64,000 nt of DNA from Macrocybe gigantea (lineage: Eukaryota; Basidiomycota; Agaricomycetes; Agaricales; Callistosporiaceae), in contig SJRY01000258.1 of the NCBI GenBank assembly GCA_011319805.1, positions 62,001 to 126,000 of the forward strand, read 5' to 3'. This document shows positions 2,218 to 62,989 of this stretch, piece by piece (position 1 is the stretch's first letter; the number at the start of each line of letters is the position of its first letter). The notes beneath the pieces are model-generated. The model made no database searches. It had not been told where the DNA came from and saw only the letters and a program-made list of their open reading frames with translations. Made by a program: the position numbers and the translations under genes.

Positions 2218-3888
2218 ATGCGTCCTGCAATCAACCTGCCGCACGACGTCTGGGAAGTCGTGGCGCAGTTGCTGCCGCGAAAGGAGCTGTTCAGACTAAT
2301 CTCCGTCAACCGAGCATTCTACAACATCGTACTTGACGAGAGGTACGGAGAAATATTGTGGGTTAAACTGGACAACGAGACTCTGAGGTACTTAGGTCGT
2401 CTACAGTGAGCAGATTCATCCAACTATCTTGTCGTTATTGCAGAGCCATTGATCCGCGTGAACGGCGAAAATAGGGATTCTTGCATTGCCAGACGCGTCA
2501 GACGTCTACACATACGTGCTTGGTTCATCCACTACTTGCTCCAGAGAGATGCGCTATTCAAAGCATCATACCGACAGCTATGGCTCAGGAACTTTTTCCA
2601 GAAATTCTTCACTCTGAACTTCGATTTCTTCGGTCTCTGTTCCTGGCTATGTACATCCAAAACCTCATCTGACCCGCCGGTTGACTTGTCGTCTATAGAG
2701 GGTGTTATGAAGGCTATGGTCAGGGCCGTTGAGGGGATGATCAACGTCACCGAATACAATTTTGAATGGAGAGACCTTCCGCTCAACCAGGACACACACT
2801 TTTCTTGACGACTGCCCGCGCGGCCTTCAACTCAACCTTACGAAAGCTGGTTCTGCACGCACAGATTTCTCGTTTCGTGCAGTTGCTTTCCATCACGGAC
2901 TTTGAGGGTCTCGAGGAACTCGAGTTCTGCTTCGACTTTGATGCGAGCCACCCGGACCCGAGGGAGGACCCGCGCGATCGCAATGCCGCGATCCTTGTCT
3001 CCTGCGTGGCGCCTTTCATCAATTATCTGAGCCCTTCTCTCCGTAGTCTGACCATAACCTCGATGGCGAAAGGCGATCACTCTGCGTTCTTCCAGGCGAT
3101 CGGAACCCTCCCGGCTCTCCGCCACTTCGCTCTACGTATGGCATTTGAGGCGGAGTATATTTCCGATCCGTCAGGTATACATCGCGTTCTTCGTGACCAT
3201 ACGTCGACTTTGTTGAGCGTCGAACTGAAGCCGACGCGACCACACGTGTCGACGCGGACAACACTGCCTTTCTTCCATGTCATGAAAGGCATGTTTTACG
3301 ATTATCTCTCAGACCACGCATGTCTGCGGTCTTTAGAATCGCTGAGCATCCCGACTCTTGATCAGAGGATGACTGTGATCCTAGTATCGCGATCTGCAAG
3401 TACCCTCAGACGCCTTCATATCTCGGATCGATTTCTGCATATAAATGAAGTGGCACAGATCGTCAGCATATTTGCAAATAACCCCTGCAATCTTATCGAC
3501 TTGCATCTGGAGGTCTGCGCAATAACAAAGAGACTACTGAACGTGTTGTCTATCGGATTCCCGATGTTGCAGTCCTTGACACTGGTCGTCGAGGATGATG
3601 ACGTTCGTTTGTTGTCTTTTTTTTCTTCCAGGATCTCTTCTGCTTACTGATCTCCCGAATTCTATCGTCGCAAATTTGCAGATCACAGAGCTGCAGTGGG
3701 GCCTCGACCGTGCTTATCTGGATTGGAATCTCTATGATTTATCTTTGTTCATCGGTCACTACAGGCATGACCTGATCTCAGTTTTGCCGCGCACTCGGGA
3801 CGAAGACAGATTGATGGCGACGTTGGCCAGACATCTCCCTAACGTCCGAAGTTTCAAGGGCAGAGGTCATAGACGTGCGTGGACGTGA
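2218..3888 (+). CDS. F-box protein A (tandem paralogue), reading frame interrupted
   Basis: Exon 1 (2218-2405) encodes an N-terminal F-box (LPHDVWEVVAQLLPRKELFRL, then VNRAFYN). After an intron ending at 2474, exon 2 continues into a long leucine-rich region resembling F-box B downstream almost throughout (RRLHIRAWFIH, FEWRDLPLN, LEELEFCFDFD). The frame breaks at a short T run at 2800-2803: translation stops at 2806-2808, while the homologous protein continues in the next frame up to 3650. A second switch occurs near 3610-3632, in a T8 run followed by ttccag, and may be a 3' splice site. Segment 3633-3888 continues the protein. F-box proteins recruit substrates to SCF ubiquitin ligases; the substrate is unknown. 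The gene may be intact with sequence errors, or a young pseudogene. Confidence 0.65.
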
Positions 3889-4370
3889 TGAACGCTAGTG
3901 CCATTCTTGTCTACCTTGACTCATCGGCGTCACCTTGAAGGTGTCTGCAGGTCGTAGTCTCTATGTCACTACCATGGTGAAGCTGTCCAGCCCCTCATTG
4001 CTGTACATCTTTTCGTTAATGAAACTGTTATCGATGCATTCCTTCCGCCTCACTCGTGCTCTAACCAACTGTCGAGGAGCGCCCAAAGCAGGTAGTTCCG
4101 CCCCACTCCTAACTGACCGGAATAGGGCCCATCAAATTAGTGACACCCATAGCGCCGAAATTTGACATCTTGTTCAGGTGGACGTGTCATCAGAGCGTCA
4201 TCAAAGGCATGCAGGCGTAGCGACAGAGATTTGCCAGTTGCTCGATCCGACCATTGTGCTGTCATGCTTAGCGTATGACTACGGTCCTACGTGCTCGTGA
4301 CGCACTGCCACGCGCATATTTCTTTTTTAACCGCCTGCTTGGAGGCCTTTGAGAATGAAATATTGACCGC
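3889..4370. other. spacer between the two F-box genes
   Basis: No coding features are supported in this 482 bp. It contains the 3' region of F-box A and the presumed promoter of F-box B. A short T-rich tract (about 4319-4328) precedes the F-box B start. Confidence 0.4.
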
Positions 4371-60600: not shown

Positions 60601-60652
60601 CGCTTGTCCGTGCTCCCACAAGCGCTGCAGTTCGCCGTCCTTCCGCGCGTCG
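57649..60652. other. 3 kb intergenic region
   Basis: No gene is supported. Plus-strand frames at 59234-59614 and 59611-59991 have no recognisable motifs. It lies between two divergently transcribed cell-wall genes, so it must contain both promoters. Confidence 0.35.
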
Positions 60653-62989
60653 ATGCCTCATCCGACCTCTATACTGGTACAAGACCAGAAGCTGACGCCG
60701 CCGCAGCCAAGATTCGCATCTGAAGCGACGTCAGACAGCGACTCTGAGCTTCACCCCTCGACCACTCACTCCCGCACCACTTCCAATGCCGTGTCCTACG
60801 CCGACTCACCGCCCATAACGCCCCGAAGCCTCACGTTTAGCAGTGCTAACCCATTCTCCCCCCCTGGGAGCGTGATCAGTTTCGGTAACGGACCTGATTT
60901 GACGTCTTCGGGTGCACTTAGACATAACAGTGGTCAGTACCCATTCCCAGAGATATCTCCCAGGAGCGGCGTCACGTCGAGATCGACCAGCATCGCTGAC
61001 TTTAGTCGGCTGTCGTCATCCTATGGCAGTCGTCCCACGAGCACGACGGACCTCAATGGCTCTATCCGGAGTTCCGGACGCTTCAGGGAGACCTTTGCCT
61101 CTCCCCCATGCGACCTATCACGATGCACAGCAGAGCACCCTCGTCCAAGATAGAACGGGAACGGCCCAAGTCGACTTTGCTCTCCGCCCCCGTCGAGAAA
61201 CCATGGCTCGGAACACGTGATCCATATGGACGTGTAGCCTATCTGCTCACGTATGCTATGATACTTTTGGGAATCGCGGCTGGCGCCGTAAAATGTTGGA
61301 CAGGTTGGAACGAAGTAGCGCTCATCAACGGAAACTTATGCCCAGTGATGGACGAGAATTTCGATTCTGAAGAAGGGATTTTCGGTGAAAATGGAAAGTT
61401 CTTCAGAGAAGTGGATATGAGCGGATTCGGGTAGGTTGCCTTTTAAATTCATATCCCTGAAGGTTCCTCAACGTATATTGTTTCATTTCGAAGAAATGGA
61501 GAATTCGAAATGACGACAGATTCTTCAAATAACTCTTTTGTCAAGGACGGGTATCTCTATATCGTACCCACGCTGACCTCAGACCAACTCGGCGAAGCTG
61601 CAATTGAGGATGGACAGGTGTTCAACATCACGAGCTGCACGTTCAATATCACACAGGGAGTCACATACACTCAGTCCTCGGCCTGGTCGGCAAATATGAG
61701 CCTCATAGGTTCCGACACCTTCGACGTCGCTGGCTACCGCAGAGCCTGTTCTGCCACCAGCAATGCTACTTCGGGTCAGGTTATCAACCCCGTTCAGAGC
61801 GCCAGAATCAGCACGAGAAGAAGCGCCAGCATTAAATACGGCCGAGTTGAAGTTAGAGCTAAAATGCCGACTGGGTAAGTCTCCAAGACTGTGACGGTGA
61901 GCTTCCAAAATCTGATGCAGAATGGCTCTTGGTTCAGTGATTGGGTGAGTCCAGAGTCATAGCATTTCTAGGCCAAGTGGCGTCGACCAATCATTGTGGT
62001 CTTTTAGCTTTGGCCTGCCATATGGATGCTCCCTGTGGACAACAAGTACGGCTTGTGGCCTCTAAGTGGTTAGTTGTTGATTATATTTCATTCCGTCCCT
62101 GCTGACGCCTGAATTCAGGTGAAATTGATATTATGGAGGCAAGAGGCAATGGACCGAGATACCCAATCCAGTGCGTCTGTCCTTCGCCCCTTAGATAATG
62201 GGCGTTTCATATCGACTCAGAGGAACAAACTGGGTTCGCGGCTCCTTGAACTGGGGACCACGACTGTGGCTGAATGCGGTCTCCAAAACGTATGGTGCAT
62301 GGCTTCTGAAGCGTGGTTCGTTCGACAAGGACTTCCATACTTACGTCTTGGAATGGACAGAGGACTTCATGTGCGTTCGGTCTTTGTTGTTGTTCATCTC
62401 ACCCCTGACGTGTTGCGCTTCGAATAGGCGCATCTACGTCGACACGCGTCTTCACCATATGCTCGATCTGAAGATCAAGCGATCGTTCTGGAACCTGGGC
62501 GATTTTCCTCCTGTCGTTCAGAACGGCTCAGAAGCGGTCGTCTTGGAGAACCCTTGGGCCAAAGGGACTAAAGCGGCCCCGTTCGACCAGCGTAAGCACG
62601 ATCGCCGGAGTCTTGCGTGACGTCCGTCTGACATCTGCCGCGGGTTGGTTCCTGTTTGATGGATGCGTTTAGCGTTCTACCTCATCATGAATGTGGCGGT
62701 GGGAGGAACGAATGGCTGGTTTCCCGATGGAAATGGGGACAAACCGTGGCTCGACGGTTCTGAGGGTCTGTTCCTTTGCGGTATAAATGTGTGGTAATGG
62801 ACTGATAATGTGTTTGTGCAGTTGCCATGGGTCAGTTCTGGAAAGGCAGGAATCAGTGGCTGTCGACGTGGCCGACAAACATCGAGGACCGGGCTCTGGT
62901 CGTGTGCGTATTTATATCTACCGTCAGATACTCGACCCACTGATTTGGAACAAACCAGTGACTACGTGAAGATGTGGCAGCTATGTTGA
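60653..62989 (+). CDS. KRE6/SKN1-type beta-glucan synthesis protein (GH16-like, type II membrane)
   Basis: Ten exons (60653-61430, 61494-61874, 61938-61944, 62008-62068, 62119-62170, 62221-62370, 62428-62591, 62673-62765, 62822-62903, 62959-62989), about 599 aa. Residues 1-180 are Ser/Thr/Pro-rich and cytosolic. One transmembrane helix (RVAYLLTYAMILLGIAAGAV) is followed by a GH16-like lumenal domain: GQVINPVQSARISTRRSASI, KYGRVEVRAKMPTGDWLWPAIWMLP, the catalytic-type motif GEIDIMEARGN, GTNWVRGSLNWGP, FHTYVLEWTEDFM, YLIMNVAVGGTNGWFPD and DYVKMWQ. The family is needed for cell-wall beta-1,6-glucan. Exon 3 is only 7 nt (TGATTGG). A C5 run at 61103-61107 breaks the frame between FASPP and MRPITMHS; one extra base restores it. 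Confidence 0.92.

Follow-up and report, generated by a model that had tools for sequence, protein, structure and literature searches.

Long-read errors are predominantly short indels tied to homopolymers and, in one draft assembly described in the available text on Kastor, most of them were false deletions (Kastor, PMC12007338). Where one copy of a repeat is free of errors, moreover, short reads align to that copy and the error in the other persists, as set out in the available text on Polypolish (Polypolish, PMC8812927). We analyzed a stretch of 64,000 nucleotides (C257:62001-126000, termed the window) from an assembly of 41.2 Mb in 333 contigs, and compared its broken genes with both systems. 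As in the Kastor text (PMC12007338), the breaks appear to be for the most part false deletions, some of them in homopolymers, by which genes that are normal in other respects are split. However, the genomes covered in that text are small and mainly bacterial, whereas the window is fungal, many of its losses lie outside long runs, and their detection relied on the other haplotype within the assembly. The likeness to the situation in the Polypolish text (PMC8812927) is that one copy is wrong and the other right, and here the indels are most one-sided in the blocks with the most similar copies. That text concerns bacterial repeats, whereas the copies in our case are haplotype contigs on which a correction by short reads would have acted. 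Judged from the DNA itself, the frame breaks in the window are very probably residual single-base deletion errors in a draft consensus in which both haplotypes have been kept as unpurged contigs, and not biology.

By protein matches, the closest relatives of the window are agaric mushrooms near Hypsizygus and Lyophyllum. Its GH16 glucan-protein shows 71% identity over the full length to proteins of Hypsizygus marmoreus, Tricholomella constricta and Lyophyllum atratum, and no match among the 120 listed is above 72%. The source is probably a heterozygous, dikaryotic agaric, and the assembly was probably built from long-read data. The broken genes are predicted to be ordinary and probably functional. 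The initial annotation had called the glucan-protein gene KRE6, which is its own label; the relatives of the gene are named GH16 beta-1,3-glucan recognition or binding proteins, and the best of them matches Glyco_hydro_16 in Pfam. Among the other broken genes there are matches to Aa_trans, Gti1_Pac2, DAO, Glyco_trans_2_3 and F-box; for the WSC gene, relatives carry the name copper radical oxidase or WSC-domain protein. The four pieces on either side of the DAO and GH16 breaks had no match to Pfam. A scan of the whole window with Rfam (gathering threshold) and a tRNA scan likewise gave no matches.

A DNA search with a 2.3-kb probe from the window recovered a 95% identical match on contig C8. 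C8 and a further contig, C10, carry second copies of large parts of the window (Table 1). Neither of them covers positions 33814-35016, and a DNA search of the assembly with positions 2200-4000 matched only the window itself. Relative to C10, the window lacks about 10.9 kb and about 5.8 kb, at positions 18749 and 19026 (L030-L033); the extra DNA in C10 probably represents haplotype-specific insertions. Chaperonin loci elsewhere in the genome are also paired across different contigs (four pairs, 94.6 to 99.4% identity), which indicates that both haplotypes have been kept in several places of the assembly. The paired contigs would correspond to the two nuclei of a dikaryon.

Nine one-base frame breaks had been listed in the initial annotation. 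Eight of them show such a break at the place given or within about 40 bases of it, but the one at 3615 does not. Three-frame translation shows that the frames flanking this T8 run (f2 followed by f0) cannot be joined by one added base, and a look at the sequence by eye, which is not a formal test, found no intron that fits. One added base had been claimed to rejoin the frames at all nine places; at the six that C8 covers, C8 does have one base more than the window. The first F-box gene has a tandem paralogue with one continuous frame, which follows frame 1 of the window as far as 2796 and frame 3 from 2802 onwards. In the transporter gene, the pieces on either side of 9996 match positions 2-56 and 73-254 of Aa_trans, and two frames meet between them. 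Homologues of the glucan-protein, used as queries, align to the window in two frames, frame 2 as far as 61108 and frame 1 from 61105 on, and to C8 in a single frame across the same place. At all six listed breaks that it covers, C8 holds one open frame. The break listed at 49287 is real, but it had been misplaced: the C5 run there is identical in both copies and the frame shifts near 49250 instead. A Tricholoma relative (P0204), in which the linker is in the downstream frame, agrees with this position. Thus, of the four breaks that had been assigned to C5 or G5 runs, three are in such runs and the one at 49287 is not. At 54280, the corresponding run in C8 is broken up by substitutions.

Table 1. 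Second copies of the window and frame breaks. Positions are those of the window, and letters followed by a number denote runs of one base.
Feature	Position	Strand	Observation
Second copy on C8	35017-64000	+	C8 reverse strand, 55,836 bases; four alignment blocks; most one-base losses on the window side
Second copy on C10	10039-33813	+	C10 = 40,542 bases; one-base losses sit in C10
F-box gene, break (listed at about 2800)	2796..2802	+	Alignment to paralogue changes frame
Same F-box gene, T8 run (listed at about 3615)	3609..3616	+	Three-frame translation, sequence
Amino-acid transporter (Aa_trans), break (listed at 9996)	9995..9998	+	C10 begins 41 bases beyond; no second copy
DAO-type oxidoreductase, break	41276..41282	+	Window A3, C8 A4 at 41281; C8 open
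Gti1/Pac2, break	45211..45214	-	Window G5, C8 G6 at 45212; C8 open here
Gti1/Pac2, lesion in C8	45478..45484	-	C8 two bases short; window open
Gti1/Pac2, second break in window	46293..46298	-	Window G4, C8 G5 at 46297; C8 open
WSC-domain copper radical oxidase, break (listed at 49287-49291)	49249..49254	+	C8 one base longer, open
Glycosyltransferase (Glyco_trans_2_3), break	54280..54284	-	Window one base shorter; C8 open
GH16 glucan-protein, break	61103..61108	+	Window C5, C8 C6 at 61103; C8 open

The direction of the indels differs between the two second copies. C257 is the shorter sequence in 20 of 22 clean single-base indels against C8, whereas C10 is the shorter one in 15 of 18 against the window. 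Single-base losses therefore outnumber gains in the affected copy, as is expected of long-read errors. All 19 indels in the block 35017-42080 (0.52% mismatches) are window-short (p 3.8e-6), as are all 11 in the block 42081-42403. Two blocks lie at the ends of C10, and in them 9 of 11 and 8 of 9 indels leave the alternate contig as the shorter sequence. Where the copies are near-identical (three blocks), the majority side of the block accounts for 36 of 39 indels, compared to 168 of 275 in the five others (p 5e-5), a division into near-identical and divergent blocks that was made after seeing the data. The counts leave out the C10 alignment piece at 18749-19026.

The errors are also reciprocal between the copies. 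Exon peptides were located in the sequence to build models of 12 genes, which comprise 18.2 kb of coding sequence; two peptides lacked an exact match and were dropped. These models contain seven breaks in six genes, and the earlier estimate that about half of the genes are broken is fair for this set. In the exons under C8 (9.5 kb), six frame-disrupting losses are on the window side and one is in C8 (p 0.125, not significant alone). In the exons under C10 (8.4 kb), the window has no frame-disrupting single-base loss and C10 has seven (p 0.016). Compared along the window, six losses in 9.5 kb of exons (35-64 kb) stand against none in 8.4 kb (10-34 kb; p 0.033, with clusters set aside). Two differences were set aside by judgement, namely three single-base gaps at an exon edge at 24179-24181, with the window as the shorter sequence, and an in-frame difference of six bases at 61189-61191. 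Among the losses in C10, those in the genes for a nuclear protein, a GTPase and a transporter were read residue by residue, and after each of them the conserved protein resumes in another frame. Moreover, in two genes neither copy is intact, and the breaks differ in position: Gti1/Pac2 at 45211 and 46297 in the window and at 45480 in C8, and the transporter at 9996 in the window and at 11021 in C10. The errors are thus not limited to the contig of the window; other contigs are hit too.

The initial annotation had favoured homopolymer under-calling over pseudogenisation. Base loss in the consensus is strongly supported by the open frames of C8 at the six covered sites, the reciprocal errors and the unchanged constraint past the breaks, but homopolymers explain only part of it. 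Four of the six coding losses of the window under C8 are in runs of at least four bases as read in C8 (A4, G6, G5 and C6), compared to a background of 4.8% of the window's coding bases in runs of four or more. A pure homopolymer story fails for the losses in C10, because only one of the seven is in a run of at least four. Among the G/C runs in the 35-64 kb part of the window, none has exactly six bases and about one has seven, while C8 has about two runs of six in the corresponding part. These runs are too few to decide on a further possibility, an upper limit to the length of homopolymers.

Fresh pseudogenisation would mean that the haplotype of the window truly has one-base deletions in many genes, with intact alleles in the other nucleus to shelter them, and an open second copy at all six covered sites is what such sheltering needs. 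The clean single-base window-short indels under C8 point the same way, being fewer in coding sequence (3, or 0.31 per kb) than elsewhere (15, or 0.77 per kb), a scarcity not expected of errors that are purely random; the second figure also includes real polymorphism, and the numbers are small. However, the broken copy switches between one stretch and the next, and all indels are on one side in the block of 19. The breakage of both copies of Gti1/Pac2 and of the transporter, in addition, would hardly be expected if a good allele sheltered a null one. Selection gives a similar picture. For five genes, allelic dN/dS amounts to 0.091 in the part before the first break (1363 codons) and to 0.094 in the part after it (1810 codons). 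Since it is equal before and after, both sides of the breaks are still under constraint and show none of the relaxation expected of a pseudogene, although a very recent lesion would escape this test. Finally, indels in multiples of three are not in excess in coding sequence (2 of 19, compared to 41 of 295 elsewhere; p 1.0), which indicates that the coding indels are unfiltered by reading frame. We consider fresh pseudogenisation very unlikely. Two nuclei that carry complementary fresh null alleles and depend on each other, a balanced-null state made of one-base deletions in many neighbouring genes, would be extremely unlikely.

Two further readings leave the letters as they are. If short introns had been missed, or gene models were wrong, intact genes could seem broken; short introns are dense in this region and, at 3615, the T-rich run ahead of an AG could in principle be an acceptor. 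Yet the second copy reads through at the six covered breaks, and we rejected this reading at the seven breaks of the modelled genes, where the frames overlap or come together within five bases and so leave no space for an intron. As a general account it is hardly credible. Programmed frameshifting, in which ribosomes would switch frame at these sites and the genes would work as written, is in keeping with a conserved protein that is encoded by both frames around the breaks. The sequence at the breaks varies from gene to gene, however, and such a requirement would be unexpected in so many unrelated genes. It was rejected on the second copy, which lacks the frame change at all six covered listed sites, and we regard it as next to impossible.

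How single-base errors of the consensus could come to alternate between haplotypes is suggested by the one-sided, alternating pattern of the indels, from which we infer that bases were dropped and that one copy was corrected. The long-read consensus would have dropped bases, partly in homopolymers, and a later correction would have reached mainly one copy per stretch. During this correction, unpurged haplotype contigs may act like repeats: the correcting reads would align best to the better copy, so that the worse copy would stay uncorrected.

The four chaperonin pairs, compared as DNA and, for three of them, by reading the translated frames by eye, show how other parts of the genome fare. Two pairs look open in both copies across the conserved part. 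One of these two, on C75 and C227, has a one-base difference near the C-terminal end that could not be placed as coding or noncoding. In the third pair, a TCP1-type chaperonin, the copy on C228 (L016, near 1479) has lost one base in a conserved stretch, and its twin on C68 (L039) is open. The fourth pair, on C66 and C126, has one indel difference, beyond the matched part. This small sample suggests that the error rate at the chaperonin pairs is lower than in the window.

As biology the finding is ordinary; it is useful as a warning for annotation and guards against a false claim of widespread pseudogenisation. In these stretches, gene models that this assembly yields from the worse copy will be broken up roughly 0.6 to 0.8 times per kb of coding sequence. 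Setting the window against the unpurged second haplotype in the same assembly provides a control that needs no reads.

Three additional places in the window were noted in passing. A phosphotransferase-like gene (6130-8057) has an in-frame TGA at 6538 amid conserved-looking stretches, in a part of the window that has no second copy. The second of the tandem F-box genes may shift frame near its C-terminal end (5700-5815). Finally, in the first of two tandem DAO-type genes the conserved protein passes from f1 to f2 at 34910-34925, which is a frame change additional to those listed.
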